Virus record (IMG/VR): IMGVR_UViG_3300006802_000271
Coordinates: 1 to 34,489 of that record
Length of the DNA: 34,489 nucleotides
Strand: one strand, 5' to 3'
DNA from: a virus
The notes beneath the pieces are model-generated. The model saw only the letters and a list, made by a program, of their open reading frames with translations. It was not told where the DNA came from and did no database searches. This document shows positions 5,035-26,156 of this stretch, piece after piece; the stretch's first letter is position 1; each line of letters starts with the position of its first letter. Both the position numbers and the translations under genes were made by a program.

Positions 5035-5587
5035 TTTTGAGTATGGGGTTGGACTCGGCCCCTTAAGAGATGAAAATGCAGCCGTCTACTACCATGCTAG
5101 AAATGACTATAATATCTGGAAGTGGTGCAGGCAAAACGATGTAATCCAAATAGGTGAGCACGTTAGCTGGCTGCAGTATGTCACAGCTGATACAAGCAAA
5201 GTGCGCATGTACGAGGTTCTTGACCAGCACGAGCTTGTTGGTGTGTGCGGTTTAACTGATATTGATCACGTTAACCGTAGGGCTGAGTTTAGCCTATATA
5301 TAATCCCGAAATACCACCGCAAAGGGTACGGCAAAAAGGCGTTAAAAACACTATTAAAGCATGGGTTTTATAACCTTGGTTTAAATACTATCTGGGGCGA
5401 AACTTACGAGGGTAACCCAGCATTTGATATGTTTATGTCACTTGGTATGACTCACGAGGGCACTAGAGATGAATTTTATTATCGCAATGGTAGGTTTATC
5501 GACTGTCACCTCATTAGCCTCACTCGTGGGGTGTTTGATGATGTGGAAAAAACTTGGCCAAAAGCCAAGCTACGATGCATCAAGTAA
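5027..5587 (+). CDS. GNAT N-acetyltransferase (RimJ/RimL- or PseH-like)
   Basis: A 186-residue acetyltransferase. The acetyl-CoA site is seen as the strand AEFSLYIIP followed by the loop HRKGYGKKAL (about 104-113, the R/Q-x-x-G-x-G/A loop). It then continues with LGLNTIWGETYEGNPAF and a C-terminal FYYRNGRFIDCHLISL, typical of the RimJ/RimL-type subfamily that also contains PseH and related amino-sugar acetyltransferases. Lying last in the coupled sugar operon, after an aminotransferase, it probably N-acetylates the newly added amino group. The substrate is inferred. The start ATG 5027 overlaps the preceding stop by eight bases. Confidence 0.85.
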   Translation: MIDFEYGVGLGPLRDENAAVYYHARNDYNIWKWCRQNDVIQIGEHVSWLQYVTADTSKVRMYEVLDQHELVGVCGLTDIDHVNRRAEFSLYIIPKYHRKGYGKKALKTLLKHGFYNLGLNTIWGETYEGNPAFDMFMSLGMTHEGTRDEFYYRNGRFIDCHLISLTRGVFDDVEKTWPKAKLRCIK

Positions 5588-6115: not shown

Positions 6116-6140
6116 GGGGCTAGGCCCCTCTTTTCTATTT
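6114..6140. terminator. Rho-independent terminator between convergent genes
   Basis: GAGGGGC (6114-6120), loop TAG, GCCCCTC (6124-6130), then TTTTCTATTT. It is a perfect seven-pair GC stem with a U-rich tail on the rightward transcript, and it begins on the stop codon of the gene before it. The opposite strand has a weaker T-rich tail, so it may also stop the leftward SSB transcript. Confidence 0.85.
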
Positions 6141-6492
6141 AGAAAGGTATGTTGTTTGGATCTTCTTTGGGCTCTTGATTGTTTGAGCTAGCAGCCTTTG
6201 CTCCAAACTCAACTTTGCTGGCCGTAAGATAGGTAACATAAGAGTCATCTTTTTTAACATTTTCAATAGTACCCTCACAAATAACATGCTGACCTTTCTC
6301 GAGATACTTAGCACAGTTTTCTGCAGCCTTGCCAAAAACGGTAACGCTATTCCATGCCGTAGATTTCTCGTAGTTATCGCCATTTTTAACCGTCTTATCA
6401 CTTGCTACATTTAGGTGCACCTTGTTGTAGTTTTCGCCTGATAAAAGCTCTGGTTTTTTTGAAATCCTGCCTGTAATAATAAATTTATTCAT
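6139..6492 (-). CDS. ssb: Single-stranded DNA-binding protein
   Basis: A 117-residue OB-fold protein: FIITGRISKKPEL, then HLNVASDK, STAWNSVTVFGKAAENCAKYLEKGQHV and YLTASKVEFG, all in the usual SSB order. A short acidic tail ends DPNNIPF, matching the C-terminal tip that bacterial SSBs use to dock recombination and replication partners. It would coat single strands made by the RecE-like nuclease and support annealing by ERF. Last gene of a leftward run; on the minus strand GAGG lies six bases before the ATG. Confidence 0.93.
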   Translation of the reverse strand: MNKFIITGRISKKPELLSGENYNKVHLNVASDKTVKNGDNYEKSTAWNSVTVFGKAAENCAKYLEKGQHVICEGTIENVKKDDSYVTYLTASKVEFGAKAASSNNQEPKEDPNNIPF

Positions 6493-6494
6493 GT

Positions 6495-6944
6495 CTAACC
6501 TCTCACTATTTCACTGACTGCTTGAGTGACGCCAGTAGCGTATTCTATCACTTCTTGCTTGTTAATCATTATGTTACTAGAGATGTAATTAATAGATTTT
6601 CTTTTTATCGGGTCATAAACTCGCATGGTGCCACACTTATTACGGCCCATAAGTACAACCTTTTTAACATATGGCTCAAATGGTGACTTAACAAACACCT
6701 CTTTATCAATATTTTTAAGAATAATTTCTACCCTTGGGGTTCCACTACTACGTCTTTGAGTATACACATTGCGCACTATTTTTTTATGAGTAATGGGATT
6801 TCTACCATAAACATCGGTCACAATTGTGCCTTTATTCCACTTCCAAATGTATAGGTCACCTTGTTGCGTTAATAGGGTAGTTTTGCCCTGCTTGGCTGTT
6901 GTTGGTTTGTTAAAGTCGATTTTTATTAGAGTTTGATCGTTCAT
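6495..6944 (-). CDS. Unknown protein inside the recombination operon
   Basis: A 149-residue protein, basic in the middle (for example ITHKKIVRNVYTQRRSS and VKKVVLMGRNKCG), with beta-rich patterning and no membrane segment. I do not recognise a family. It sits between ERF and SSB, overlapping the ERF stop as ATGA with AGGA seven bases upstream, so it is certainly co-translated with the recombination proteins. The basic surface would be consistent with nucleic-acid binding; that is only an inference. Confidence 0.75.
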   Translation of the reverse strand: MNDQTLIKIDFNKPTTAKQGKTTLLTQQGDLYIWKWNKGTIVTDVYGRNPITHKKIVRNVYTQRRSSGTPRVEIILKNIDKEVFVKSPFEPYVKKVVLMGRNKCGTMRVYDPIKRKSINYISSNIMINKQEVIEYATGVTQAVSEIVRG

Positions 6945-7579
6945 TGTATAGTCCTTTCTATAATTTCATTTACTTGATCCCAGGTTGGGTCATCCCATAG
7001 CCCTTTGATTTTTTTGATTCTTTCGGCAGCCTCTGTGTTGATACCTTTTAGCTGCTCAAACATTCTTTTCTTCTCTTGCACACTCCATACTTTGTTAACC
7101 TCTGGCTTTCTTTGAGCCACTTTCTGGGGTGCGGTTGTACGTGGTTTACTTGCTTCTTTATCTGAATCCTCACCAGTTTCAAGCATAAAAGTTTTAAGCA
7201 AGGCATACTTAAACATATAGCTAATGGCTTTACCTGGTGATTTATCGCCTGAGTCAAGACCGTAGCCGATAGCCTCAACAGTCAAGACATCCATTGGGTC
7301 ATCGATGTTGCAGAACTTGACGGCACCTTTTATTTTTGTCCTGGTTTCTCGCCGTTTGCCGAATTTGTTTTCAAATTCTAGCTCATCATCCTCAACCTGA
7401 ATGTGCTCAATAAAGCAAACAACACCATGCTTAACCATGGCATCCCGCACTTTCGCAGTCACTGCATCATGACTAACAGCTTTATAGCTGCCCTTGCCCA
7501 TGCTAACGCTAGTGTCTTTTTGCACATAGTGCACATCAGCCATGACTGCATGTATTCTCTGTAACAAGTTTCTTTTCAT
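6941..7579 (-). CDS. erf: ERF-family single-strand annealing recombinase
   Basis: A 212-residue protein with the family signature GYGLDSGDKSPGKAISYMFK (about residues 105-124) followed by YALLKTF and an acidic GEDSD. The second half is a Lys- and Pro-rich linker and a C-terminal helical part. ERF proteins (type member in phage P22) anneal complementary single strands and, with an exonuclease and SSB, recircularise or recombine phage DNA. A strong GGAGGTGA ribosome site lies within the end of the nuclease gene. The length agrees with P22 Erf (about 204). Confidence 0.9.
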   Translation of the reverse strand: MKRNLLQRIHAVMADVHYVQKDTSVSMGKGSYKAVSHDAVTAKVRDAMVKHGVVCFIEHIQVEDDELEFENKFGKRRETRTKIKGAVKFCNIDDPMDVLTVEAIGYGLDSGDKSPGKAISYMFKYALLKTFMLETGEDSDKEASKPRTTAPQKVAQRKPEVNKVWSVQEKKRMFEQLKGINTEAAERIKKIKGLWDDPTWDQVNEIIERTIQ

Positions 7580-8436
7580 AATCTCACCTCCAAAATTCCA
7601 TCATTACCAAGACCTGGGTACTGGTTGTTTCTATTTGCGTAATCAATCGCAAGCATTAGTGCTTTATATTCTGCCTCTGTGTTTCTTCGAGTGCTCTCAT
7701 CAAGTACAGTGAGTCTTGTAGTAAAAGGTGGGCTTTTCTCACACCAGCCCAGCGCGAAAGCTTCGGACATATAAGGGACACAAGCCCTAACACCTGCCAC
7801 ATAATGCGCCTCTTGCAAATCATAGCGAAAGTTTTTATACCCATAAAATATATCCTTACTGGTTATCGGTTTAGCCGTTGTTTTAAGGTCTAAAATCCCA
7901 TGCTCGAGGCTGAGCAAATCAACTTTGCTTTTACATTGCATGTTGGATGTAGGGCACACCCAAAACATAGCAACCTCTGTGTAGTGCTCACCTGCTGTGT
8001 AATCTTGCCAATAATCGGACTCATAAATATTTTTAGCCATTTGCTCAATCTTATACATATCGAGCTCATCAAGTATGTGTTTATCTTTGTTTTCGAGCTT
8101 CCAGGCTCTGCCTTCTTTAGTTCTTAAATCAAGTTTGGGCTTAGCGATAAAACTCTTATTAAACTCATCTTTATCAAGCATGTAGGCGTGAAATGCTGAC
8201 CCAAATGCAAAATAGTCTGGCCGCCATGTTAGTGGCATACTTTCGTCCGGGTGCGCTACTGCATTATAATGAGCTAAAGATATTGCTGCAGCCTTGATAG
8301 ATGTTGAGTTTACACCTGCTTTAAAAGCGTGGTAGTCATCATCATTAACCTTAAACACACCTTCAACGGGCCCATACTCATGAATCTGCTCAAGCTCTTC
8401 CAATGTCTTACTTTCAATTTTCACATGACTCTCCAT
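7576..8436 (-). CDS. RecE/exonuclease VIII-like PD-(D/E)XK nuclease
   Basis: A 286-residue nuclease. GSAFH (79-83) begins the conserved region. The core shows Asp173 in KVDLL, then ILDLKTT (Asp183, Lys185: the D-x-K of PD-(D/E)XK) and QEAHY (Gln208, Tyr212), the motif IV of RecB/RecE-type nucleases. It would resect double-stranded ends 5' to 3' to give ERF its substrate. Start: ATG 8436 is used; an alternative GTG at 8424, four codons in, has a better ribosome site (GGAGAG). First gene of the leftward recombination run. Confidence 0.88.
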   Translation of the reverse strand: MESHVKIESKTLEELEQIHEYGPVEGVFKVNDDDYHAFKAGVNSTSIKAAAISLAHYNAVAHPDESMPLTWRPDYFAFGSAFHAYMLDKDEFNKSFIAKPKLDLRTKEGRAWKLENKDKHILDELDMYKIEQMAKNIYESDYWQDYTAGEHYTEVAMFWVCPTSNMQCKSKVDLLSLEHGILDLKTTAKPITSKDIFYGYKNFRYDLQEAHYVAGVRACVPYMSEAFALGWCEKSPPFTTRLTVLDESTRRNTEAEYKALMLAIDYANRNNQYPGLGNDGILEVRL

Positions 8437-8481
8437 GGTTGTGAGGAACCTAGTATTACTAGATATTACTTGAGGTGGTCA
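8437..8481. promoter_or_regulatory. 45-base divergent intergenic region with operator-like palindrome
   Basis: This gap drives RecE leftward and the endolysin rightward. It holds CTAGT-ATT-ACTAG (8450-8462), a perfect palindrome, and a repeated TATTACT. A rightward pair TTGTGA (8439-8444) / GATATT (8462-8467) with a 17-base spacer is plausible but only 4/6 at each box. GGTCAA at 8477-8482 reads TTGACC leftward. The boxes overlap the palindrome, as an operator would. Confidence 0.4.
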
Positions 8482-8952
8482 ATGGTAAAAATGATAAAAT
8501 CTGAAAATCTCTTATATCCAAGATTCTTGGAGAAACTAAAAGACGTTCAAAAAGAGTTTAATGAACAAACTGGACACCGTATATTGATACACGAGACATA
8601 TCGGCTACCTGAGCGGCAGCAGTGGCTTTACGAGCTGGGTAGAACCAGAAAGGGAAGAGTTGTGACCAACACCCTTGCCAGCACACACTTTCTGGGCCTT
8701 AGTTGTGACTTTGTTGGTGACATTAGCCCGGCCCCAGGCATCCAAGGGCCTTATGACATTGACTGGAATAAGCTTGGTGCAATTGTGCTTAGTAAAGGTT
8801 TAGTTTGGGGTGGTAACTTCAAGAGCCGCGACATGGTGTACGTTGAAATGAGGGGCCCATATACGGTAAAAGATCTTTTTGAAATGGTTGAGCAGCATGG
8901 TATTTTATACCTTTGGAATAAGCTAGAGGGTTATTATGGACAAGGTACCTAG
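8482..8952 (+). CDS. M15-family peptidoglycan endopeptidase (endolysin-like)
   Basis: A 156-residue protein with the peptidase M15 layout. ETYRLPERQQWLYELGRT corresponds to the usual 'R-t-x-x-x-Q-x-x-L-y' helix. STHFLGLSCDF supplies His69 and Asp76 (the S-x-H-x-x-G-x-x-x-D zinc site), and WGGNFKSRDMVYVEM is the terminal block. In M15 enzymes that last block normally has D-x-x-H-x-E with the third zinc ligand; here the position is Tyr120, while Glu122 is kept. It is probably the phage lysin, cutting peptide cross-links, with no signal peptide. The start ATG 8482 has GAGG at 8472-8475. It overlaps the next gene by 17 bases. Confidence 0.8.
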   Translation: MVKMIKSENLLYPRFLEKLKDVQKEFNEQTGHRILIHETYRLPERQQWLYELGRTRKGRVVTNTLASTHFLGLSCDFVGDISPAPGIQGPYDIDWNKLGAIVLSKGLVWGGNFKSRDMVYVEMRGPYTVKDLFEMVEQHGILYLWNKLEGYYGQGT

Positions 8953-9343
8953 TTTTGAAATCTTTATACCAATTTTACCAGTGCCTAAAGCTCATCGGCG
9001 TTATGGTAAAAGAATTGTACTAACTGATTCTTGCCGTGACTATCAACGCCAAGTGACCGAGTTTTTAGAAAAGCATAAAATAGATACTTTAGACGGTTAC
9101 ATTTGGGCTGATTACACTTTTTATTTAAAGCGCCCAAGCTCTTCCAAAATGGATTACCCAGCGCGTAAGCCAGACCACGATAACTTGGTTAAAAGTTTGC
9201 AGGATTGTTTAGAGAGGGCAGCTATCATCAAGAATGATAGCCGCATTGTGGTATGTACAACCAGGAAAGTGTTTGTGTGCGGAAAGGGATCGGATGGCGT
9301 TATTTCAGTTGGTACGAAAGTCCAACTGGGATTACTTGCATAA
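8936..9343 (+). CDS. rusA: RusA-family Holliday-junction resolvase
   Basis: A 135-residue protein with the RusA design: a PVPKAHRR basic stretch near the N-terminus, then KPDHDNLVK (Asp80, Asp82) and KNDSRIV (Asp101), matching the three acidic catalytic residues of E. coli RusA (D70, D72, D91). RusA dimers cut four-way junctions. Together with ERF, RecE-like nuclease and SSB this completes a phage recombination kit, probably to resolve concatemers before packaging. Its 3' end overlaps the convergent gene at 9300 by 44 bases. Confidence 0.9.
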   Translation: MDKVPSFEIFIPILPVPKAHRRYGKRIVLTDSCRDYQRQVTEFLEKHKIDTLDGYIWADYTFYLKRPSSSKMDYPARKPDHDNLVKSLQDCLERAAIIKNDSRIVVCTTRKVFVCGKGSDGVISVGTKVQLGLLA

Positions 9344-9599
9344 CTTCAATGTTAGGATGTTCTTTATACCTTTTTTTTCTCATAGGTCTACCTAAAATCA
9401 CCACCACATTATTAATTTTTTGCAGGCTTAAGATGAAATTACATACACTGCTGTGACTGACCATAACAAAGGGCTCATTATCAAATAGGCGTATACCGTC
9501 AAAAACTTTGAGGTTCTTTTTTCTTGTTCTACGCCATTTAACAATTGCGATACCGCAACCATCCTCTAAGCCCCATAGCCTAGATTCTCTGCCAGTCAT
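9300..9599 (-). CDS. Unknown 99-residue protein
   Basis: Ends a chain of five overlapping leftward genes; its ATG overlaps the previous stop (ATGA). The product is basic at the start (VKWRRTRKKN) and in the middle (GRPMRKKRYKEH), with hydrophobic strands such as NNVVVILGRP. No known domain was recognised. The last 44 bases lie under the end of rusA, so one of the two 3' ends is free to vary only with the other. The gene is supported mainly by coupling and by the frame staying open outside rusA. Confidence 0.55.
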   Translation of the reverse strand: MTGRESRLWGLEDGCGIAIVKWRRTRKKNLKVFDGIRLFDNEPFVMVSHSSVCNFILSLQKINNVVVILGRPMRKKRYKEHPNIEVMQVIPVGLSYQLK

Positions 9600-10003
9600 C
9601 GGTATTTGTGGGTATCAAGGTGTTTTAATATATTCTCGTATCGCTTGGCAGATTTCTTGGCTTGCGTTAGTGACTTTATTTTTTCTGCAGTGGCTTTTAA
9701 ATAGTCTTGCTGTGCTTGCATCCAAAAAAATGCACTTTCGTTTTCCGAGTTTTGATTTTGGCTTTGGCTCGGGGCCCCTTGCACCCATGGTATCTCCCAG
9801 TCAGTGATGACGCCACCGAGTGCTTTTTTAAAAGCGTGGAGCGTCTTGAAGTTTTCAGAAAACTTAGTATCACTTTTACAGCATCGCCGCAATGTTTTGA
9901 TGTGCTCAATCTCTGTTTTGCTGTAGCACACCAGGCTCTCATGTTTCTCACCGATCCAAACAAATTCATCTATCAACTCACTGTAATACTTCAATGCAGC
10001 CAC
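9596..10003 (-). CDS. Unknown helical protein
   Basis: A 135-residue protein in the leftward chain. The N-terminal half has ELIDEFVWIGEKHESLV and a small Cys-rich patch (RRCCKSD). The middle contains a Gln/Asn/Ser-rich linker (about 78-88), and the C-terminal third is a long basic helix (DYLKATAEKIKSLTQAKK). No domain is recognised. It overlaps the genes on both sides by 4 and 13 bases. Confidence 0.6.
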   Translation of the reverse strand: MAALKYYSELIDEFVWIGEKHESLVCYSKTEIEHIKTLRRCCKSDTKFSENFKTLHAFKKALGGVITDWEIPWVQGAPSQSQNQNSENESAFFWMQAQQDYLKATAEKIKSLTQAKKSAKRYENILKHLDTHKYR

Positions 10004-10287
10004 ACCTCTTGATTTTCTTCATGGGCCTCAAGCAATATGACAGTCATGCAATACTTACAAGTAAGTTTTGAAATATCTCGTGTTATTATGTGATTAGGGT
10101 AATACCCAGTTTTGCACAGCAGCCCTACACCATTCTCATCTGAGTATTTATAGTGTATCTCGTTTGTGCTTGGCTCGTGTGCTGGGTAGTCTTTTCTTGA
10201 ATCTGGTATATCTGGCCGCGCGATTAATAACGAATATTTTTGTAAGGTTTTCAAACAGGCAGCAGATACTTTCTTCTTGCTTTTCAT
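9991..10287 (-). CDS. Small protein with a CxxC pair, overprinting the metallopeptidase end
   Basis: 98 residues. The C-terminal third, LLCKTGYYPNHIITRDISKL followed by TCKYC, resembles small phage zinc-knuckle proteins. The N-terminal 47 residues are encoded by DNA that also encodes the end of the metallopeptidase in another frame (140-base overlap). ATG 10287 has AGGA about ten bases upstream on the minus strand. A later non-ATG start that avoids the overlap cannot be excluded. Function unknown; metal or nucleic-acid binding is a guess. Confidence 0.55.
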   Translation of the reverse strand: MKSKKKVSAACLKTLQKYSLLIARPDIPDSRKDYPAHEPSTNEIHYKYSDENGVGLLCKTGYYPNHIITRDISKLTCKYCMTVILLEAHEENQEVWLH

Positions 10288-10516
10288 TGATTGTTTGTCC
10301 TAACCCCGAATAATAAAAAAAAGCGTGACAAATCTCATGCACCAGCGTCATGTACATTTGTTCTGGCCTTTCTATTCGGATTATTATTTTGTTTTCATCA
10401 GGTATAAAAAGACCATGCAAATACTCGCCGTCATGCGATGGTATTTCTTTTTGGTATTTAACTTTAACCCATGTACCGAGAGTGTTAACAGATGTTGGCA
10501 GTGTTAAGTCATCCAT
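10148..10516 (-). CDS. HExxH metallopeptidase-like protein (ImmA/IrrE- or SprT-like)
   Basis: 122 residues with TLVHEICHAFFYY: His60, Glu61 and His64 form the zinc-binding HExxH helix. A following helix EKQEESICCLFE supplies a candidate third ligand (Glu81 or Glu82). This small gluzincin layout is like the ImmA/IrrE peptidases, which cleave phage or ICE repressors, and the SprT group. The region after about residue 90 is Arg/Lys rich and shares its DNA with the next gene. No repressor target is visible in the genome, so it could act on a host or resident-prophage regulator; this is an inference. It overlaps the metallophosphoesterase by 13 bases. Confidence 0.65.
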   Translation of the reverse strand: MDDLTLPTSVNTLGTWVKVKYQKEIPSHDGEYLHGLFIPDENKIIIRIERPEQMYMTLVHEICHAFFYYSGLGQTINEKQEESICCLFENLTKIFVINRAARYTRFKKRLPSTRAKHKRDTL

Positions 10517-11202
10517 GTTTTACCCTCTACAAGTGAAATGAATCTCGGCCCAAATTCATCGACGATAGCGAATCCATTCATGAAGTTTGAAAACTTTCTT
10601 TGTGCGGTGTAGCTCAGTGGTACGCTCGAAAGGTCTGCCATTGTTGCAGCGTTTATCTCCCAAATAACTGAGTCTTTGATGCGCCTAAAAACACATGAGC
10701 CTTTATGGGTGTGCCCAAACGCTGTGTTTTTCATGTTGTAATTCATGTGAGTACCAGGCCTTGAATAGTGCCCATGAATAAAAACGATATCTTTTAAAAT
10801 AAGCTCATCTGCTTGCGAGCTCTGTGTTGCTACGCCGTCAAACTCCCAAAGGTGAGCCATATCGATTGTCTCGTACAACTCGGGCAGCTTAGCCATTACC
10901 TGCTTTTTTAATCTTTCGTCATGGTTGCCAATGAGTTGGTAGCATTTTGCTTTAGGGTACAAGTCCTGCAGCTTATCCCACATTTCTTGAGCACACACTC
11001 GGGCCTTTCGGATTTCCTCAGCTGGCTTATCGATATTAAGACTGCGAGGGTAGCGAGATAAGTTGTAAAAATCATAAAGGTCACCTACCTGCACTATATG
11101 GGTAAATTCTGGCAGTTTTTTGATTGCTCTGAAAAAACCGCGAAAAGACTTTTTACAGTGATAGGGGAAGTGAGTATCCCCAATAATAAGTATATTTAGC
11201 AT
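10504..11202 (-). CDS. Calcineurin-like metallophosphoesterase
   Basis: A 232-residue enzyme with all metal-binding blocks in order: GDTHFPYH (Asp9, His11), VGDLYDF (Asp41), GNHDER, FIHGHYS and FGHTHKG. The family hydrolyses phosphomono- or diesters using two metals; phage members include lambda-type protein phosphatases and nucleases, and the substrate here is not readable from sequence. First gene of the leftward chain. There is no Shine-Dalgarno sequence. The -10 TATAAT at 11209-11214 would place the transcription start on or next to the ATG, so the message may be leaderless. Confidence 0.88.
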   Translation of the reverse strand: MLNILIIGDTHFPYHCKKSFRGFFRAIKKLPEFTHIVQVGDLYDFYNLSRYPRSLNIDKPAEEIRKARVCAQEMWDKLQDLYPKAKCYQLIGNHDERLKKQVMAKLPELYETIDMAHLWEFDGVATQSSQADELILKDIVFIHGHYSRPGTHMNYNMKNTAFGHTHKGSCVFRRIKDSVIWEINAATMADLSSVPLSYTAQRKFSNFMNGFAIVDEFGPRFISLVEGKTWMT

Positions 11203-15811: not shown

Positions 15812-16957
15812 ATGATTAAGGTTCAACTGGTAGACGGACAAGGCAACGGTTATGCTGCAAAGGTCAATGAAACAGGGCAACTTGTTTCAGGCCCGTTAGA
15901 GTATTCAGAACCGTATGCAGTGACAATGGATAGCGTAAATACTGCGTATGTGATTGCGACGCCGTTGATTCGTTTCCGCTTTGTCATAACTGGCATTTTG
16001 CTAGATGCTGGCAAGGATGTTTCAGCTAGTACAGCGGGAACGATTGTTCTTTATGAAACAGATGCCGAAGATTCAATCGTTGAAACAAAGGAAATATTAA
16101 CCTTTGAAATGTTGAAAAACACTAGCAGGGTTATAACCGGCCTCAACGTTATTGTTACCGAGGGCGAATGGTTAAGCATTCGAACAACCGATGCAACGGT
16201 TTATGCGACTGTATTAGGTTATTATGTTGAGTTCGACAAAGAGCCAATACTTTCAACTGGTGGTGGATCTAGTTCTATACCTGTAGCATCACCATTGTTG
16301 ACTGATTTGTATGCTTGGTATGACTTAGAAGAGGATAGCGGAACAAGAGTTGATGCGCTTGGTAACTGGGATTTAACCAGTCAAAACGGAACGCCTGATA
16401 ATGATACCGGGTTGATCGGTTCGGCACTAAACTTGAACAGCACTGGAACAGCGGAATCAATTTATGGTGCGCTATCAACTGGACTTGGTTTTGACGGCGA
16501 CGGTGATTTTACTATATCCTTGTGGGTTAAATTCGACGCAGGTGGAACATTCGAAACATATGTATCGCATTGGGGCGGCAATGGTTCAAAATCGTGGTTC
16601 TTCTCGAAAGATGCTAGCGACAACATCCGGGTTGATTCATCAAGCAACGGCACAGGCATTACAACGACAACAACACATGGCAGCATAACCGCGACAAACT
16701 GGAATCATTTGGTTTTTGTTTATGACGATACAGCAGGAGAGATCCGGGTTTATGTCAATAACAGCTTAGACGCCACGACTCATAGCAGCTCACTTGCGGT
16801 TGTTGCAAATTACTTTGTTATTTGGGGGACGCTTGGCACTAACTCGAATGCCATGAATGGAAACATTGATCTAGTAGGCTGTTGGAACAGAAAGCTTGAT
16901 AATACTGAAGTCTCATTGCTGTATAATAGTGGAGCTGGCACAACATATCCATTCTAG
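15812..16957 (+). CDS. Receptor-binding-type protein with C-terminal LamG-like domain
   Basis: 381 residues. The N-terminal VDGQGNGYAAKVNETGQL is the third copy of the motif. After a Gly/Ser linker (near 150-157, GGGSSS) the C-terminal 220 residues have the concanavalin A/laminin G-type pattern: LYAWYDLEEDSG at the entry strand, FDGDGDFTISLWVKF in the middle, then WNHLVFVYDDTAGEIRVYVN, the 'W-x-H-v…v-Y-v-D-G' signature strand pair. LamG-like domains commonly bind glycans. I infer an adhesion role. It is followed at once by the NeuB-type gene. Confidence 0.75.
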   Translation: MIKVQLVDGQGNGYAAKVNETGQLVSGPLEYSEPYAVTMDSVNTAYVIATPLIRFRFVITGILLDAGKDVSASTAGTIVLYETDAEDSIVETKEILTFEMLKNTSRVITGLNVIVTEGEWLSIRTTDATVYATVLGYYVEFDKEPILSTGGGSSSIPVASPLLTDLYAWYDLEEDSGTRVDALGNWDLTSQNGTPDNDTGLIGSALNLNSTGTAESIYGALSTGLGFDGDGDFTISLWVKFDAGGTFETYVSHWGGNGSKSWFFSKDASDNIRVDSSSNGTGITTTTTHGSITATNWNHLVFVYDDTAGEIRVYVNNSLDATTHSSSLAVVANYFVIWGTLGTNSNAMNGNIDLVGCWNRKLDNTEVSLLYNSGAGTTYPF

Positions 16958-16964
16958 GGGTTTT

Positions 16965-17882
16965 ATGTACATAATAGCTGAGATAGGTAGTAATTTTAAT
17001 AGTGTTGAGGATTGCTTGCTACAGGTTGAGCTAGCAAAAAAGGCTGGGGCTGATGCTGTAAAGTTTCAGCACTTTACTCTAAGAGAGATGTACGGTCATG
17101 GTGATGGTGAGGTTACCCCAGAAAGTTGGCTTATTGACCTGCACCGCTACAGCAAGCAAATTGGCATTGATTTCTCTTGCACTTTCTTCTCACCTGAAAA
17201 GCTCTTGAAACACCTGGGGCTGCTTGATTTCATCAAAATAGCATCATCCAACATGATGGATAAAAGGCTGTTAGACATCGCCAAGGCTAGCGGCAAGAAA
17301 ACGCTGATATCTACTGGTGGCCATGAGCTGCATGAAGTACAGAGGGTTTTTGATTATTTTGCCGATGCTTCGTTTATGTATTGCGAGAGCGCTTACCCAT
17401 CGCATGTGAATAATTACAAAAAGATGAAAGATTTTTACTTTGACGGCATCAGCGACCACAGCCTTGAGGTTTACCCTGAGTATCCACACTGCAGGTATGT
17501 TGAGAAACACGTTAACTTTTTGGATTTAAACGATAAGCCCGATGCAGGACATGCTCTCGGGTTTTTTCAATTTACCAGGTTTTGTAAGCATGTAAGAGGC
17601 GATGACAAGTACCATCCTTTATTGAGTGTCGAAGAGGTTGACATGCGCACCAAGTACAATGTGAGGCTTGTTGCTAAAAAGGATATTGGCACAGGCTGCA
17701 AGCTTACCTGGGATAATGTTGGTGTATACCGGGGCACTAGGGATGCACAGAACTACATTACAGCTTTAGATGCTGATAAGGTTATTGGAAAAGTAGCAAA
17801 AAAACACATTAAAGCATGGGATAGCATTGGATACTCAGATTTTCAAACCGCACAGTCTGAAGCAGAACAAGTGCATACATAG
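16965..17882 (+). CDS. NeuB/SpsE-type nonulosonic acid synthase
   Basis: 305 residues. N-terminal TIM-barrel: AEIGSNFN (5-12), VKFQHF (32-37), IKIASSNMMD (90-99), LISTGGHE (114-121), ESAYPSH, then SDHS (His165) and EKHV (His182). Those two histidines correspond to the metal-binding pair of NeuB. A C-terminal SAF (antifreeze-like) domain runs from about 234 to 288 (LVAKKDIGTGCKLTWDNVGV). The family condenses PEP with a hexosamine to give sialic, pseudaminic or legionaminic acid. The usual N-H-N after the glycine is N-F-N here. At 305 it is about 40 short of classic NeuB. ATG 16965 has AGGGG upstream. It overlaps terL by 56 bases. Confidence 0.9.
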   Translation: MYIIAEIGSNFNSVEDCLLQVELAKKAGADAVKFQHFTLREMYGHGDGEVTPESWLIDLHRYSKQIGIDFSCTFFSPEKLLKHLGLLDFIKIASSNMMDKRLLDIAKASGKKTLISTGGHELHEVQRVFDYFADASFMYCESAYPSHVNNYKKMKDFYFDGISDHSLEVYPEYPHCRYVEKHVNFLDLNDKPDAGHALGFFQFTRFCKHVRGDDKYHPLLSVEEVDMRTKYNVRLVAKKDIGTGCKLTWDNVGVYRGTRDAQNYITALDADKVIGKVAKKHIKAWDSIGYSDFQTAQSEAEQVHT

Positions 17883-19140
17883 TGATAAGAAAATCATTAT
17901 TCTAGCTTGTGGTATCCAGTTCGGTAAAACCATGGCTGGCGCTATTTTCATGAAAATGAATATGCATAGGCATACAGACCCTATGGATAACTTCATAATT
18001 ACCGCACCAACCTATAAAATCCTGCAGCAAGCAACACTCCCAGCATTTTTAAAAGTCATGGAAGGCTATGGAACATTCCATAAAGTCGATGCAATGTTTA
18101 AGATGCATAACGGTGGCACTTGTTATTTTCGTACTGCTACCGATCCCGATAGCGTGGTAGGCATCACTAGGGTTAAGGCTATCTGGGGTGACGAGTCTGG
18201 GCTGTATTCTCTGTACTTCCATGAAAACCTTCAGGCCAGAGCTTCCTTTTCTCAGGCTCAGATAATCTATACTACTTCCCCTTATTCCATGAACTGGATT
18301 TATACTGATTACATTAGGCCATGCCATAGGGGTTTGGAGATCAGTAACGAAGTTGAGCTGGTACAGGCTAAAAGTAGCGAAAACCCTTACTTCCCTAAGG
18401 AAGAATTTGAACGTAAGAAGCGCACGATGGACTCAAGGCGCTTTAATATGGTTTATGGTGGTGAGTTTCACAAGCTTGAGGGCTTGGTATACAGCTGTTT
18501 TGATGAAGAAACGCATGTTGTTAAGCCTTTCCCTTTGCGTGGCAAGTTTAAGATTGTTGCTGGTGTTGACTGGGGCTTTACTAACCCAGCTGTTATTGAG
18601 GTTATGGCTATCACTGATGAGGGCATATTTTTGGTGCATGAGTGGTACAAGGCTCAGAAAACTATTGGCGAGATTGTCGAGCAGGCTGCAAGGTTGAAGT
18701 CAATTTATGATATTGAGCGCTTTTATTGTGACCCATCAAGCCCTGCTAATATTTTTGAGTTTAATAAGGCTGGTTTGACTGCGATACCTGCAGACAACAA
18801 CATTAGGCCTGGCATTGATGCTGTTTATGAGAAAATGGCCTCTGGAAAATTCAAGGTTTTTGAGGGTAAAGCCCCCAACTTTCTTGATGAGGTTACTATG
18901 TATCATTATCCCAATGTTGAGGATGTTAAGCCTGATGCTGATGTAAAAGACCAGCTGCCGGTTAAGCAGTATGACCATTCAATGGATAGTATAAGGTACG
19001 TAATTTATGGCCTTCACAAATCAGATGTATCGAATAAGAGAAAACCTGTTATCGGTGGCACAAAAAAAACTGTAAATCCTTATGATTATCGTGATAGATT
19101 GCTTAAAGAACTTAATACAACAACAGACTATGATTGGTGA
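17827..19140 (+). CDS. terL: Large terminase subunit (packaging ATPase/nuclease)
   Basis: 437 residues. Walker A-like CGIQFGKT (28-35) and Walker B KAIWGDES (117-124; Asp122, catalytic Glu123) form the packaging motor. The nuclease half has VAGVDWGF (Asp248), RFYCDPSSP (Asp302) and QYDHSMDSIRY (Asp383/Asp387), the acidic RNase H-fold set. The deviant P-loop without Arg/Lys at position two is common among phage terminases. Start: TTG 17827 with GGGA five bases upstream is the only sensible start before the P-loop; it lies inside the NeuB gene. Length and layout fit a P22-like or related headful packager. Confidence 0.93.
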   Translation: MDTQIFKPHSLKQNKCIHSDKKIIILACGIQFGKTMAGAIFMKMNMHRHTDPMDNFIITAPTYKILQQATLPAFLKVMEGYGTFHKVDAMFKMHNGGTCYFRTATDPDSVVGITRVKAIWGDESGLYSLYFHENLQARASFSQAQIIYTTSPYSMNWIYTDYIRPCHRGLEISNEVELVQAKSSENPYFPKEEFERKKRTMDSRRFNMVYGGEFHKLEGLVYSCFDEETHVVKPFPLRGKFKIVAGVDWGFTNPAVIEVMAITDEGIFLVHEWYKAQKTIGEIVEQAARLKSIYDIERFYCDPSSPANIFEFNKAGLTAIPADNNIRPGIDAVYEKMASGKFKVFEGKAPNFLDEVTMYHYPNVEDVKPDADVKDQLPVKQYDHSMDSIRYVIYGLHKSDVSNKRKPVIGGTKKTVNPYDYRDRLLKELNTTTDYDW

Positions 19141-19142
19141 AA

Positions 19143-19505
19143 ATGATTTACCCTTATATTTGCCCTAAGTGTGACAATAATTTTGAGGTCATAAAATCTG
19201 TTAAGGATATAGACCAGCCTGAAAATTGTCCATCATGTGATACAATAAGTAATAGGACTATCTCAAGATTTCAGGCTGTTGACTCTACTGCTGCTGCAGA
19301 TTGGAATAATAAGACATATAACCCAGCCTTTGGCAAAGCTCTTACACCACAGCAGGCCAAGAAAGAGGCGAGGGCTAGAAATTGGGCAGAGGTTGGCACT
19401 GAGCCACCTGAAAAAATCCATAAGCATTTTGCTAAGCAGCGGGAAGAAAAAGAAAAAGCTAAATGGGATAGTTTTAATTTAAATTTAGGCGAGGTTAAAT
19501 CGTGA
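19143..19505 (+). CDS. FmdB-type zinc-ribbon protein
   Basis: 120 residues: YICPKCDNNFEV then ENCPSCDT gives two CxxC pairs 18 residues apart in the FmdB/regulatory zinc-ribbon arrangement. The remainder is a polar, Lys/Glu-rich helix. Such ribbons often sit between terminase and portal genes in phages; their role is unclear. ATG 19143 is used, although GTG 19137 or TTG 19134 are in frame. It ends on a GTGA overlap with the portal start. Confidence 0.75.
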   Translation: MIYPYICPKCDNNFEVIKSVKDIDQPENCPSCDTISNRTISRFQAVDSTAAADWNNKTYNPAFGKALTPQQAKKEARARNWAEVGTEPPEKIHKHFAKQREEKEKAKWDSFNLNLGEVKS

Positions 19506-20206
19506 GCGATATTTCACTTGGTGATGATGGTATTGACCCATCGATTAGTGAGGAGGATGCGCAAGATGTTAAAATGGTTTTGGACTTATTTAAAAAGTAC
19601 AAAAAACATCGTGCAAAATACGATAGTAATTGGATGCACTACTATAAAATGTGGCGTGGTGACCAATGGCATAACATAAAGATGCCCAGATTTAGGCAGC
19701 AAGAGGTTATCAACCTTATCTGGCAAACTGTGCAGTCCAATATGCCACTGCAGACAGATGTTAGGCCCAAAATTTCTTATATCCCAGAAGAGCCCTCAGA
19801 TAAGCTATTAGCAGAGGTTTTAAACCAGGTGAGTGAGTCTGATTGGGAGAGAAAAGACTGGCTCAAGGTTTTATCAGAAGTAATTTTAGATGGGTATTTA
19901 TATGGCACAGGATTCGCTAAGATTGGTTATGACCCTGATGATGACTACGGTGTTGGTAGTGCTACTTTTGAATCTGTTGACCCATTTTATTTGTACCCAG
20001 ACCCAGAGGCGAAAGAAATAAACGGCCCGGACTCATTTGGTATAATAATCGCTAAGCCTGTTGAAACAAAGCGCCTAAAACAGAAGTACCCACACTTAGC
20101 AGACAAGATAAAAGCAGATATCAAAGATAACATTGCTAGCTCAAAAACTTCTTTGAACGATTTAAGCTTAAAATGTCAAATACTGACAGAGATATGCCAG
20201 ACATGA
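19502..20206 (+). CDS. Portal protein, N-terminal part (split by a frameshift)
   Basis: 234 residues. Contents: an acidic N-terminus, YKMWRGDQWHNIKMPRFRQQ (the typical opening of P22-like portals), VNLIWQTV-type core residues, LDGYLYGTGFAKIGYDPDD, then VDPFYLYPDPEA. All are recognised portal blocks. The frame ends at 20206 after a few out-of-place residues (ILTEICQT). The rest of the protein continues in the -1 frame from about 20173. Start GTG 19502 with GAGG upstream. The portal is the dodecameric DNA gate at the unique capsid vertex. Confidence 0.85.
   Translation: MSDISLGDDGIDPSISEEDAQDVKMVLDLFKKYKKHRAKYDSNWMHYYKMWRGDQWHNIKMPRFRQQEVINLIWQTVQSNMPLQTDVRPKISYIPEEPSDKLLAEVLNQVSESDWERKDWLKVLSEVILDGYLYGTGFAKIGYDPDDDYGVGSATFESVDPFYLYPDPEAKEINGPDSFGIIIAKPVETKRLKQKYPHLADKIKADIKDNIASSKTSLNDLSLKCQILTEICQT
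20140..20206 (+). other. Portal frame change (-1) zone
   Basis: The second frame is open after the TAG at 20137-20139 and the first stops at 20206, so the shift lies between. Candidate sites are CTTAAAATG at 20167-20175 (A4 run at 20170-20173) and an A5 run at 20143-20147. One extra A in the A4 run would restore a continuous portal, so an indel or assembly error is as likely as programmed slippage. Confidence 0.7.
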
Positions 20207-21318
20207 CTTTTATGGATGGCGAGAGCAAGGCAGAAGACAAGACCATGCTTATAACTGCTTATTTAAAGCCTCAAGAAACACAAGATGAGGAAAAAATAGA
20301 TGAGGCAGGTGATGTTAAGGTTGTCACCAAGAAAATATACCCTTTCGGCAGGGTTATAAAGGTTGCTAATGGCTTGAAGCTTGAAGAGAAAGAGCTGCCA
20401 TTTGAAAACGGCAAGTTTCCATTTGCAAAATACAACAATTACCTTTTACCAAGAGAGTTTTATGGTGTTTCAGAAGTTGAGCAGCTTGAGTCACCTCAAA
20501 GGGTTTTTAATAAACTACTTAATGCCTCTCTTGAAGTGCTCAACCTTATGGGTAACCCGGTTTGGATTGTCGATACTGCAAGCGGTGTTGACCCGCAGCA
20601 CCTTGTTAATAGGACGGGTTTGGTTGTCGAAAAAGAACCAGGTAGTGAAGTACGTAGGGAATCGGGTGTACAACTATCAGGTTCGGCGCTATCACTTATT
20701 GATAGGCTCGAAAGTTGGTTTAACAATGTATCAGGCACACAAGACATTACGCGAGGCGAAACACCTGGATCGGTCACTGCAAGTAGTGCTATTGAGCAGC
20801 TGCAAGAGGCGGCTCGAACACGAATTAGACAGAAGCAGCGAAATTTGGACTCATTTATACGAGACATTGGACGCCAATATTCAGAAGTTGTCCTTGAATA
20901 CTACAACAAGCCAAGAATTTTCAGAGTCACAAATGATGAGGGATCTACAGAGTTTTTCCGATTCAGTATTGAAAGAGATGATAGACCTGGGCCTACTGGA
21001 ATGACGCAAGAGAAAACGGCTATTATCCAAAGGTTTGCTGATGGTGAGATTGATGGCAATGATGTTGTATTAGAGCAAACACCTGTTAGAATAAAGCTAG
21101 CATCATCAAGTTTTGACGCAAGAGTTAACACAGGTTCAAGCTTGCCATTTACCACTGCAGACAAAGAGCAGAAAGCTCTAAACTTGTTTGATAGGCAGGT
21201 TATTGATGCAGAAGAGTTGTTAAGAATTTTGGATTTTCCAAATAGGGAAGAAATATTAGAGAGAATGAAACAACGCGAGGCTGAGCTTGCAGAGCAGGCA
21301 GCTTTAGAGGGAGGTTAG
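20173..21318 (+). CDS. Portal protein, C-terminal part (split by a frameshift)
   Basis: 381 residues containing the rest of a P22-like portal: FPFAKYNNYLLPREFYGVSE (the wing-stem transition), ESPQRVFNKLLNASLEVLNL, GTQDITRGETPGSVTASSA and AIEQLQEAARTRIRQKQRN (the stem helices). Together with the first part it makes about 605 residues, matching family size. ATG 20173 is only the first ATG in this frame; in a functional phage it should be made by fusion to 19502. It overlaps the first frame by 34 bases. Confidence 0.85.
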   Translation: MSNTDRDMPDMTFMDGESKAEDKTMLITAYLKPQETQDEEKIDEAGDVKVVTKKIYPFGRVIKVANGLKLEEKELPFENGKFPFAKYNNYLLPREFYGVSEVEQLESPQRVFNKLLNASLEVLNLMGNPVWIVDTASGVDPQHLVNRTGLVVEKEPGSEVRRESGVQLSGSALSLIDRLESWFNNVSGTQDITRGETPGSVTASSAIEQLQEAARTRIRQKQRNLDSFIRDIGRQYSEVVLEYYNKPRIFRVTNDEGSTEFFRFSIERDDRPGPTGMTQEKTAIIQRFADGEIDGNDVVLEQTPVRIKLASSSFDARVNTGSSLPFTTADKEQKALNLFDRQVIDAEELLRILDFPNREEILERMKQREAELAEQAALEGG

Positions 21319-22635: not shown

Positions 22636-23559
22636 ATGGCTTTAAGCGTTGATCAATTAAATGCGATCACGGAAAAATTCTGGGTCAAGAAACTTCATGA
22701 CTCAATCTTTGACTCTAACCCACTATTGATGAGAATCAAGAAAAGTGGCTCTTACAAATCAACATCGGGCGGTACTCAAATCTATATCCCGCTAAACTAT
22801 GCACAGAGCACAGCCTCTGGCTGGTACAGCGGCGCTGATACTTTGAGCACTACTGATAATGAAAACATTACATCTGCAGCATACGACTGGAAGTCACTTT
22901 ATGCAGGCGTAACTATTTCAGAAGAGGATGAGCTCAAAAACAGCGGTGACGCTGCTCAATTAAACCTTTTGAAAAGCAAGATGCAAATTGCAGAGAAAAC
23001 TTTGGCAGACAGCCTTGGTACAGGTTTGTTTTCTGATGGCACAACTGCTGACTCTATTGTTGGCTTGCGTGACATCGTAGCTGTAGACCAAACTGTTGGT
23101 GGCATTGACCAGGCAAGTTACTCTTGGTGGCAAGGCCAGGTAGATAGTTCTACATCTACTAACAGCCTTTCTAAGATGAATGAGCTCTTTCAAGACTGTA
23201 CTGTTGATTCAGAACATCCTAACTTTATCGTGGCTAGCCGCGCTGTTTACAACACTTACTATGACCTCTTAACACCTGTTCAACGTTTTGTTGATGAGAG
23301 CATTGCTAAGGGTGGCTTTGAGTCTCTAATGTTCAATGGCCAGCCTATTGTTTCTGATTCTCATTGTCCTGCACAACATTTGTTTATGCTTAACTTGGAT
23401 CATTTGCACTTGTTCTATCATCCTAAGCGCAACTTCTCTATGGAGCCATTCCAGAAGCCAATTAACCAACAGGTTAAGGTTGCTCGAGTTCTTTGGATGG
23501 GTGCACTAGGGTCATCTAACAACAGACTACATGGTAAAATGAGCGCAATTACTACATAA
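22636..23559 (+). CDS. Major capsid protein
   Basis: 307 residues with the usual opening for phage coat proteins of this type (LNAITEKFWVKKLHDSIFDS) and the Ser/Thr-rich TASGWYSGADTLSTTDNENI, corresponding to an extended N-arm or E-loop part. Helical EEDELKNSGDAAQLNLLKSK forms the spine, and the C-terminus is beta-rich (FNGQPIVSDSHCP). The HK97 fold is presumed from the family and position. It directly follows scaffold and precedes a strong-ribosome-site decoration gene. Many exposed Ser/Thr make it one possible glycan acceptor. Confidence 0.85.
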   Translation: MALSVDQLNAITEKFWVKKLHDSIFDSNPLLMRIKKSGSYKSTSGGTQIYIPLNYAQSTASGWYSGADTLSTTDNENITSAAYDWKSLYAGVTISEEDELKNSGDAAQLNLLKSKMQIAEKTLADSLGTGLFSDGTTADSIVGLRDIVAVDQTVGGIDQASYSWWQGQVDSSTSTNSLSKMNELFQDCTVDSEHPNFIVASRAVYNTYYDLLTPVQRFVDESIAKGGFESLMFNGQPIVSDSHCPAQHLFMLNLDHLHLFYHPKRNFSMEPFQKPINQQVKVARVLWMGALGSSNNRLHGKMSAITT

Positions 23560-23574: not shown

Positions 23575-24054
23575 ATGACTGCATATAGCGCAAGTCCAGT
23601 ACGTTTTGCTGGCGTTTCTCAGGTAACTGCATCTTTGGGGGCAAATGACCCAGAGGTTGGTACTTGCATCAAAGAGGGTGATGAAGAGTACATCTTTGTT
23701 TACAACACAGGTGCTGATGCACAGATTGACCCAGGTCACTGTGCTGTGCTTTCTGGTGTTACAGGTTACAGCGTAACCGTATCATCTACATCAAGCTCTG
23801 ACATCGCTGTTGGTGTTTGCAAACATGCCACAATCACAACTGGTGCATATGGCTGGTTGATGACTAAAGGCTTTTCTGCAATCGAAATGACTGCCACTTC
23901 TGGTACAGTAGCTGCTGGTGGTTTGGTTGAGGTATCTGCAGATGGTACATTTGCACCTCAGTCTAACACTACTGGTGCAGGCTTTGGCCCAGTTGGAAAA
24001 GCAATGGAGGCTATTGTCTCTGGTGCATCTGGTCAGGCTTATTTGAAATTTTAA
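23575..24054 (+). CDS. Capsid decoration (cement/head-associated) protein
   Basis: 159 residues, beta-rich, small-residue rich, with no helix of note. The pattern (short beta strands with many Gly, Ala, Thr and a Ser/Thr-rich TGYSVTVSSTSSSD at about 62-75) matches small trimeric head proteins. GAGG with a perfect AGGAGG-type site (TAAGGAGG) predicts very high expression, as needed for a copy number near that of coat. It is immediately followed by the DUF115 transferase gene, making it the first candidate for glycosylation. Confidence 0.7.
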   Translation: MTAYSASPVRFAGVSQVTASLGANDPEVGTCIKEGDEEYIFVYNTGADAQIDPGHCAVLSGVTGYSVTVSSTSSSDIAVGVCKHATITTGAYGWLMTKGFSAIEMTATSGTVAAGGLVEVSADGTFAPQSNTTGAGFGPVGKAMEAIVSGASGQAYLKF

Positions 24055-24063
24055 GGGGGCTCT

Positions 24064-25128
24064 GTGAAAAGGCGCGAAATAATTTGTAATTACCAGCCTT
24101 ATATACTCGCACCACCGGTGGCTAGTGTTAAGCTTAGGGAAAATTCTACCAAGAATGACTCTACAACCATTAATCACTGGCAAGATATTTGGCTTAACAA
24201 TATTCGCGCTAATAAAGAGCAAATGGGCTCGTTTTCAGCAAATGGCTTGCAAAACCTTTATGGTAGGTTAAGACATCGCCCAGCAATCCTTGCTGGGAGC
24301 GGGCCCTCTCTTAAATACAATGCAGAAAAATTGAGAGATAGGGGTGGGGTGCCCTTAATTTCTTGCTTGCATAATTTTCACTACTTCGAAGATTTAGAAA
24401 TAAATGCAGATTATTACGTATCTCTTGACGCTGGCCCAATAGTTGTCTCAGAGGTTACAAAAAGCGGGAAAATGAGTGAAGAGGATTATTGGCAACGCAC
24501 TGAAAAAAGAAAGCTGGTTGCCTTTATTGGCAGTGACCCAGATTTAATAAAAAAATGGCGTGGAGAGATATATTTCTTCAATTGCCCCATCCCTTCTCAA
24601 GACTACATGGCTAAGGTTGATGAGATAGAGCATTATCACACTTTTTTTAGCACAGGCGGCAATGTTTTGGGTGCTGCTCTGTATTTGGCTAAGGCTTTTC
24701 TTGGTGTTAGCACAGCTGTTTTTATCGGGGCTGATTTCTGTTTCGGCTATGATGACAAATTCCACAGCTGGGATGATGACACTTACGATACCAGTAAGGG
24801 CTACTGCATAAAAGCTGTTGATGTGTTTGGTAATCGTGTTGATACTTGGCAATCTTACAAAAATTTCAAAGATTGGTTTGACTGGGTAGCGATCAATGTG
24901 CCTGGCATCTACATAAATGCCTCAGAGGGTGGCACCATGGGCGCTTATGCTGAGGGCAACCTTGCAGCTTATAAGATAATGGATTTATCCGATGCGCTTG
25001 AGATGCTTAATATGTCTGATAGGATTTACAGGCAGGCAATGCACCCCGACTGGAATGGTGATTTAAGGCTAGGCAAAGAGCAAGACAGACCAGAAGAGTT
25101 AAATAGTTTTAATTATGTATTATTTTAG
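24064..25128 (+). CDS. DUF115/Maf-type putative glycosyltransferase (MptE-like domain)
   Basis: 354 residues. The core RPAILAGSGPSLKYN (about 72-86) carries the family GSGPSL nucleotide-binding loop. Then come VPLISCLHNFHYFEDLEINA and DYYVSLDAGP, AFLGVSTAVFIGADFCFGYD and NASEGGTMG, all in family order. DUF115 proteins include Maf, which attach pseudaminic or legionaminic acids to flagellin; the same fold is also annotated as MptE-like pterin kinase. With a NeuB, a CMP-transferase and a PseB-like gene in the same genome, the transferase reading is preferred. GTG start with GGGGG upstream. Located in the head operon. Confidence 0.75.
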   Translation: MKRREIICNYQPYILAPPVASVKLRENSTKNDSTTINHWQDIWLNNIRANKEQMGSFSANGLQNLYGRLRHRPAILAGSGPSLKYNAEKLRDRGGVPLISCLHNFHYFEDLEINADYYVSLDAGPIVVSEVTKSGKMSEEDYWQRTEKRKLVAFIGSDPDLIKKWRGEIYFFNCPIPSQDYMAKVDEIEHYHTFFSTGGNVLGAALYLAKAFLGVSTAVFIGADFCFGYDDKFHSWDDDTYDTSKGYCIKAVDVFGNRVDTWQSYKNFKDWFDWVAINVPGIYINASEGGTMGAYAEGNLAAYKIMDLSDALEMLNMSDRIYRQAMHPDWNGDLRLGKEQDRPEELNSFNYVLF

Positions 25129-25142
25129 TAAAGGATAAAGTT

Positions 25143-25520
25143 ATGGCTAACACATTAGTAAAAGTATGGAACGATAACAGCCTTGAGCACATTGAAACTT
25201 TCAAGGGTCAAGAGATTAAGATACCAGCCCATGGTTATGTTACAATGAATAGACACGAGGCTGTTGAATTTAAGAGCCAATTTAAGTCACCAGTATTTTT
25301 AAAAGGTGGCGTACCAGATCCGGCCCATAAAAAGATGATTAGGGTTGAGCCTATAAATGATGATAAAATAGAAGAAACACAAGCACCTGATGACTTTGAC
25401 TGCCAGAAATGTGGCTTTGTTGCCAAGAGCGCTGCAGGCTTGAAATCTCACATAAGAGCCAACCACCTGCAAAGCGTAGCTGACAGTGAACTTAGAAAGG
25501 AGCTTTCACAGGAGGCCTAA
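25143..25520 (+). CDS. Head-region protein with a C-terminal C2H2 zinc finger
   Basis: 125 residues. The N-terminal half (about 1-70) is beta-like and predicted virion-associated. The C-terminus holds Cys87, Cys90, His103 and His108 in CQKCGFVAKSAAGLKSHIRA followed by NH, spaced CX2C-X12-HX4H, a classical C2H2 finger. The finger follows an acidic linker (DDKIEETQAPDD). AAGGA precedes the ATG. C2H2 fingers are rare in bacterial phage structural regions; a DNA- or protein-contact role at the head is possible. Confidence 0.75.
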   Translation: MANTLVKVWNDNSLEHIETFKGQEIKIPAHGYVTMNRHEAVEFKSQFKSPVFLKGGVPDPAHKKMIRVEPINDDKIEETQAPDDFDCQKCGFVAKSAAGLKSHIRANHLQSVADSELRKELSQEA

Positions 25521-26156
25521 TTGACACCTGCTGAAATAGAAACACAAGTAAGAGCACGATATAATGCTAGTGGTGACCCACATTTTACTAGCGCTGAAAT
25601 TAGAAACGCTATCTATCAAGCTGAGCTTGAGCTAGCACTTGAGGCCTTTGTTGTTGAGGCGGTTACTACTACCGTTTCTGTAGCATCTACTCAAACTATT
25701 GCTTACCCTACTAACTGCATAGGTATTAAGCGGGTTGAGTATGACGGCAAAAAGCTAGCTACTGGCTCACTTGATTCAGACCCAAAAACAAGCACAACAG
25801 AGGTAACTGGCACCCCAGGCGAGTACACCACCTGGAATGACACTATCTACCTGTACCCAACACCTGACGCTGTTAAAACTGTAAAGATTTTTCACTACAA
25901 TCAACCTGCAGAGGTGACAACAGCAAGCACTACAATGAGTGTGCCTTCAAGGTATCACACTGATATTATCGATTTCTGCTTGTCTATAATGTACGCCAAA
26001 GATCAAAATACCCAGATGGCCACATATCACAGAAATAGATGGGAAGAAAACGTCAACAAAATCAAACGCAATAGACGCAAAGAAAAGACCAGTGACGCCT
26101 TTACGGTTGTAAAAGAGTTTGGTGTTAATGACGGCTATGCAGGGCTGATAGCATAA
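25521..26156 (+). CDS. Head-tail adaptor / connector protein
   Basis: 211 residues, opening MTPAEIETQVRARYNASGDP, a helix pair like gp4/gp6-type connectors. It continues with EIRNAIYQAELELALEAFVV, a beta section (ISLYPTP-like TIYLYPTPDAVKTVKIFHYN) and a basic C-terminal helix (NRRKEKTSDAF). TTG start with AGGAGG four bases upstream, just after the zinc-finger gene. The position directly before the nozzle protein matches the ring below the portal in podoviruses. Confidence 0.75.
   Translation: MTPAEIETQVRARYNASGDPHFTSAEIRNAIYQAELELALEAFVVEAVTTTVSVASTQTIAYPTNCIGIKRVEYDGKKLATGSLDSDPKTSTTEVTGTPGEYTTWNDTIYLYPTPDAVKTVKIFHYNQPAEVTTASTTMSVPSRYHTDIIDFCLSIMYAKDQNTQMATYHRNRWEENVNKIKRNRRKEKTSDAFTVVKEFGVNDGYAGLIA

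Follow-up and report, generated by a model that had tools for sequence, protein, structure and literature searches.

Why does a phage that carries genes for nonulosonic acid synthesis keep a gene of the DUF115 family among its head genes, and do the two belong together? Maf-type protein sialylation is known in flagella and, to our knowledge, glycosylated phage virions are rarely known. The window analyzed here is a whole IMG/VR record, a linear stretch of 34,489 bases, and its first-pass annotation raised the possibility that the phage sialylates its own coat. As a whole, that interpretation was partly supported. On the basis of sequence comparisons and structural models, we favor, with moderate confidence, the reading that this phage carries a virion-glycosylation system in which a CMP-nonulosonic acid is made late and moved by the DUF115 protein onto a protein of the virion, the decoration protein being the likeliest acceptor.

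The DUF115 gene and its neighbors

The gene at positions 24064–25128 (plus strand) opens with a GTG start codon, has a GGGGG purine stretch just 5' of that start and encodes 354 amino acids. Its product matches PF01973 (DUF115) in Pfam (E=1e-16; 61.7 bits against a cut-off of 34.6), as do 13 of the 13 members of set A1. From this match, a fold match to Maf 5mu5 and conserved motifs, we propose that it is a Maf-like nonulosonic-acid transferase. Only 9 bases separate it from the end of the decoration gene (23575–24054, plus strand), which is assigned by predicted fold. On its 3' side lie genes for a small, conserved C2H2-like zinc-finger protein (25143–25520) and for a head-tail adaptor-like structural protein (25521–26156; phrog_399), both on the plus strand. 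The placement between decoration and adaptor genes that had been described from the letters is therefore upheld. The same strand also carries the genes for the major capsid protein (22636–23559; phrog_9953, E=1e-66) and the large subunit of terminase, TerL (17827–19140, open reading frame bounds; phrog_2, E=3e-40), which adjoins NeuB in the lineage; PHROGs confirmed the head genes of the window. The portal gene of the window (19502–21318) is split into two overlapping open reading frames by a frameshift, which may be a sequencing error or real; relatives have a single frame of 603–620 amino acids. Positions 6139–11202 hold a recombination module (SSB, ERF, a PDDEXK nuclease, RusA and a calcineurin-like phosphatase), and a relative of this phosphatase adjoins NeuB in G053.

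The DUF115 protein has 84 distinct, alignable homologues, of which 72 are left after clustering at 75% identity (mean pairwise identity 51%), and about 34 columns are invariant in an alignment of 73 sequences. Judged by these homologues and invariant columns, the gene is a genuine feature, far beyond chance. The motifs GSGPSL, SCLHNFHYFED, LDAG, GGNVLG, GADFSF, FHxW and N(C/A)(T/S)EGG are kept, and the gap between decoration and DUF115 genes has a median of 28 bases in the lineage (72 cases). A tblastn search of INPHARED with the DUF115 protein found no relative. In a search of genome contigs, an Actinomycetota MAG gave a single matching fragment, too short for naming a host, and a PF01973 search of 149 Actinomycetota genomes returned mostly weak matches. 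Two contigs with PF01973 in long open reading frames were considered as full-length Maf candidates and set aside, having given no useful alignment.

Gene order in the phage lineage

Searching IMG/VR with the single DUF115 protein yielded 15 loci, and searching it with the DUF115 alignment gave 119 matching stretches, the best 80 of which were kept. The mapped contigs follow a single gene order: NeuB, TerL, a small gene, portal, scaffold-like, capsid, decoration, DUF115, zinc-finger and adaptor. After the adaptor come a stabilization protein, internal and fiber proteins and then a PseB-Gfo-CTP-aminotransferase-GNAT cassette, which lies behind the fiber genes in those mapped contigs that cover it. 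In contigs fetched independently with the capsid protein, DUF115 was absent only from those that break off about 1 kb or less past the capsid gene; each contig that extends about 1.2 kb or farther downstream carries it. No close relative of the lineage was found among 50,697 phage records. As read from these contigs, the arrangement from NeuB to the adaptor, with the sugar cassette behind the tail-fiber genes, is a fixed architecture of a large, diverse, uncultured lineage of short-genome tailed phages.

Two variations in gene arrangement were also seen. The capsid gene of L138 (9600–10779), and likewise that on the contig of L139, is interrupted by about 230 bases between open reading frames of 242 and 73 amino acids; a group I intron in the split gene of L138 was considered and found unsupported, with no Rfam intron match. 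In some relatives (L230, 3299; L231, 3267), a Gfo/Idh relative immediately follows TerL in the reverse orientation, outside the main cassette.

Maf or MptE: the fold of the DUF115 protein

An AlphaFold2 model of the DUF115 protein, made with 13 natural sequences (pLDDT 85.8, pTM 0.86), was compared with the PDB by Foldseek. The top match was the Maf flagellin glycosyltransferase 5mu5 (E=3.9e-9, TMq 0.52), over 335 columns and the whole length. The archaeal HPPK/MptE structure 8sd5 ranked second and matched the core only (E=2.2e-5, TMq 0.35, about 215 columns), and human ST8SiaIII sialyltransferases ranked third (E 0.01–0.09, probability up to 0.98). The choice between Maf and MptE structures, which the first-pass annotation had named as one check, thus falls to Maf at the level of fold, and the model places the protein nearer Maf than MptE. 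The overall superposition on 5mu5 is loose (rmsd 16.5), so the domain arrangement may differ from that of Maf. A sequence profile of 73 DUF115 proteins likewise found Maf in the PDB (E=5e-4), the alignment taking in the GSGPS motif, and HPPK was absent from its matches at E up to 10; by this profile, no PDB entry other than Maf is a credible match. The nearest neighbors of the model in viral structure libraries are proteins of uncultured phages that carry an MptE-like annotation.

Maf has a three-domain architecture of about 600–650 amino acids. The 354-residue phage protein corresponds to the Maf central domain with a C-terminal extension, the N- and C-terminal domains of Maf being missing, and for this reason we do not file it as a Maf, although we liken the system to that of Maf. 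The Maf central domain itself resembles the sialyltransferase Cst-II (PMC11339370). With the Maf flagellin transferases (MAF_flag10, PF01973, 5mu5), the phage system shares the central domain fold, the GSGP(S) motif, a genome that also encodes NeuB and a CTP-transferase and, as we infer for the phage, a soluble cytoplasmic protein as acceptor. It differs in that Maf, at about 650 amino acids, is encoded in a flagellar locus, whereas the shorter phage protein, without the extra terminal domains, is encoded in a head operon. No flagellin gene was recognized.

NeuB and the sugar cassette

The reaction of NeuB is a condensation of a six-carbon sugar with phosphoenolpyruvate, and its product is activated by cytidylyltransferases. 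The window encodes a NeuB-family nonulosonic acid synthase (16965–17882, plus strand; PF03102). The lineage profile of this protein has the pseudaminic acid synthase 8h2c as its best PDB match (E=9e-47), and the active-site motifs AE(I/V)GSN, VKFQ, KIASS, SDH and EKH are kept; the copy in the relative G008 is truncated and altered. A gene for a LamG/concanavalin-like lectin-domain protein (15812–16957) lies directly upstream of NeuB in the window. The remaining sugar genes, all on the plus strand, encode a PseB-like UDP-sugar 4,6-dehydratase (1432/1453–2277; Polysacc_synt_2; PseB TIGR03589, E=2e-42) with the motifs GGTGTLG, STDKA and YGKAK, a short Gfo/Idh/MocA oxidoreductase of 256 amino acids (2270–3040; PF01408), an SpsF/NeuA-type cytidylyltransferase (CTP_transf_3; 2886–3587; PF02348, E=1.5e-10), a class III PLP aminotransferase (Aminotran_3; 3581–4762; PF00202, E=2e-36) and a PseH-like GNAT acetyltransferase (5027–5587; PF13302; TIGR03585 at E=3e-19, below its cut-off). 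All six exceed their Pfam cut-offs, which bears out the list of sugar genes originally named. The nearest NCBIfam families are PseB for the dehydratase, PseH for the GNAT protein and NeuB/PseI for NeuB, with equivalog cut-offs reached by none. A tblastn search of INPHARED with NeuB returned at most three distant records.

Among the genes scanned, a canonical PseC-type aminotransferase was not recognized, the enzyme present being of class III instead of the DegT type, and a PseG/NeuC-type UDP-releasing hydrolase had no match. The set therefore falls short of a complete canonical pseudaminic or legionaminic pathway (PseB-PseC-PseH-PseG-PseI-PseF or the Leg equivalents). With these two steps not recognized, the pathway to a CMP-nonulosonic acid is not closed by homology and the sugar cannot be named; the host, or a gene that escaped recognition, may provide the missing hydrolase. 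Of the claim that the phage makes a CMP-sugar acid, what stands is the presence of NeuB, the CTP-transferase and the PseB- and PseH-like proteins, while sialic acid as the product is unsupported. The sps legionaminic acid pathway of Bacillus subtilis offers a parallel, comprising SpsE (NeuB type), the cytidylyltransferase SpsF and the acetyltransferase SpsD and making a sugar that coats the spore (PMC7439481). The phage shares the NeuB-type, cytidylyltransferase and acetyltransferase functions, and the sps sugar also coats a particle; unlike sps, the phage has a class III aminotransferase and a Gfo/Idh protein and no recognized SpsG.

Co-occurrence of NeuB, CTP-transferase and DUF115

Co-occurrence was counted in 23 contigs of at least 30 kb, the window included, which were ascertained by the DUF115 or capsid protein and not by NeuB. 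NeuB was present in 21 of the 23 and the CTP-transferase in 22 (one below the Pfam cut-off), with both in 21/23. Among the 16 first records, 11 had NeuB and the other five were fragments of at most 6.9 kb. The arrangement of DUF115 next to coat genes in phages with NeuB thus recurs, and the pattern named as speaking against it, such an arrangement mainly in phages without the sugar genes, is reversed in this lineage. These counts are linkage evidence and not proof, since one ancestral acquisition, through common descent, could explain them.

The two exceptions differ from each other. G059 lacks NeuB and Gfo and keeps the rest. G026 lacks NeuB, PseB, Gfo and the CTP-transferase and retains only a shortened aminotransferase relic that, as we read its sequence, has lost the usual PLP-lysine motif. 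Its DUF115 motifs are intact, and this protein may therefore use a host CMP-sugar or have another role; G026 is the strongest single fact against a strict dependence of DUF115 on the pathway. Upstream of TerL, the same contig (L168, 9041–10509) encodes an FkbM methyltransferase and a TET/JBP-type oxygenase, which may serve to modify DNA. The isolated distant phages BUCT555, ctMlz233 and ppBjS10J-1, whose capsid proteins are about 30% identical, have neither DUF115 nor NeuB.

A reverse search with NeuB returned, as best matches, mostly the same lineage, along with two contigs, close relatives of each other, from a different phage type. These have an SU10-type portal and the order TerL-NeuB-portal-DUF115, with a 291-residue PF01973 protein after the portal; a CTP-transferase lies upstream in one of the two. 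From its gene content, this second architecture repeats the pairing of NeuB with DUF115 in a head operon. Many weaker NeuB-bearing viral contigs in the search had no PF01973 match, so NeuB alone is no predictor of DUF115 across all viruses.

The decoration protein as candidate acceptor

The model of the decoration protein (pLDDT 81) matches the decoration proteins of HFTV1, Pam3 and TW1 and the base of the phi29 head fiber; by this predicted fold, the candidate acceptor is an outer-capsid protein. The Ser/Thr-rich loop TGYSVTVSSTSSSD, to which the first-pass annotation drew attention, does exist and is Ser/Thr-rich across the family (mean 46%). Positions 15, 18, 66, 70 and 149 are Ser or Thr in at least 95% of 84 homologues. 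As a sign of the acceptor the loop is not specific: the capsid proteins of the same phages have stretches just as Ser/Thr-rich, and the fiber proteins are similar. We therefore dropped the loop as an acceptor mark and claim no acceptor site. These stretches, and the location of the cassette behind the fiber genes, would also suit the same mechanism with a tail fiber or the major capsid protein as acceptor and a glycan that tunes adsorption; the transferase gene, however, consistently adjoins the decoration gene, and we regard such an acceptor as unlikely.

Discussion

We propose that, late in infection, the cassette enzymes and NeuB, co-expressed with the virion genes, would convert UDP-HexNAc to a CMP-nonulosonic acid. 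The DUF115 protein, as a Maf reduced to its catalytic core, would attach this sugar to Ser/Thr residues in the cytoplasm, while capsids are being assembled or earlier. The acceptor would be a protein of the virion, with the decoration protein as the likeliest candidate, and the finished particle would bear an acidic sugar layer. The benefit could lie in evading host receptors or defenses or in altered adsorption. Maf transfers its sugar to Ser/Thr in the cytoplasm, ahead of export (PMC4065374), so that phage proteins made there would be accessible, and it has no fixed sequon (PMC11339370). A stronger version, in which the phages of the whole lineage encode all that is needed to make the CMP-nonulosonic acid, a minimal Maf sialylates the decoration protein and the virion gains an acidic coat independent of host sugar metabolism, is put forward tentatively, and we lean slightly against it.

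The cassette might instead remodel the host surface, its CMP-sugar being used by host or phage transferases to modify lipopolysaccharide or capsule, for example as a superinfection block, with the DUF115 protein as part of it and the place in the head operon incidental. The prophage enzymes epaA/epaB do alter pseudaminic acid on the Acinetobacter capsule (PMC12053666), where phage genes act on a nonulosonic acid, although one in a host capsule sugar and not on a phage protein, and the Maf and sialyltransferase folds are related. We nevertheless judge this improbable, to the same degree as a fiber or capsid acceptor: dozens of diverged phages, and a second phage type besides, keep NeuB and DUF115 with the late virion genes, and the window genes scanned included no recognized gene for a glycan polymerase or a membrane acceptor. 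Least likely is a DUF115 protein that is no glycosyltransferase at all and is unrelated to NeuB, be it an MptE-type pterin kinase or a fold-derived head-completion protein, since against the naming of PF01973 after MptE, the core fold and Pfam family shared with the second-best match, archaeal 6-hydroxymethylpterin diphosphokinase (HPPK 8sd5), and the persistence of DUF115 in G026 without the pathway stand a stronger, whole-protein match to Maf, a near-universal co-occurrence with NeuB, strongly conserved enzyme-like motifs and no recognized pterin gene among the window genes scanned.

Glycosylation of the virion by the phage itself has precedent in the mycobacteriophage Che8 and its relatives, whose phage-encoded glycosyltransferases place glycans on major capsid proteins (Freeman et al. 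2023, as described in PMC11256854). Phage-encoded transferases are common to both systems; the mycobacteriophage glycosyltransferase genes lie near the genome end, and the portions of PMC11256854 that we draw on mention no nonulosonic-acid pathway or Maf-like enzyme. Our literature search, of incomplete coverage, found no report of a phage nonulosonic-acid pathway coupled to a Maf-like enzyme or to virion proteins.

Taken together, it is probable that the phages of this lineage make a sugar themselves and place it on their own coat. A half-size Maf-like enzyme without the extra Maf domains would be useful for asking how such transferases choose their protein target. Since several conserved sugar-pathway genes stay linked to the capsid genes throughout so varied a lineage, glycosylation of the virion may be a core trait of this unsampled phage group.
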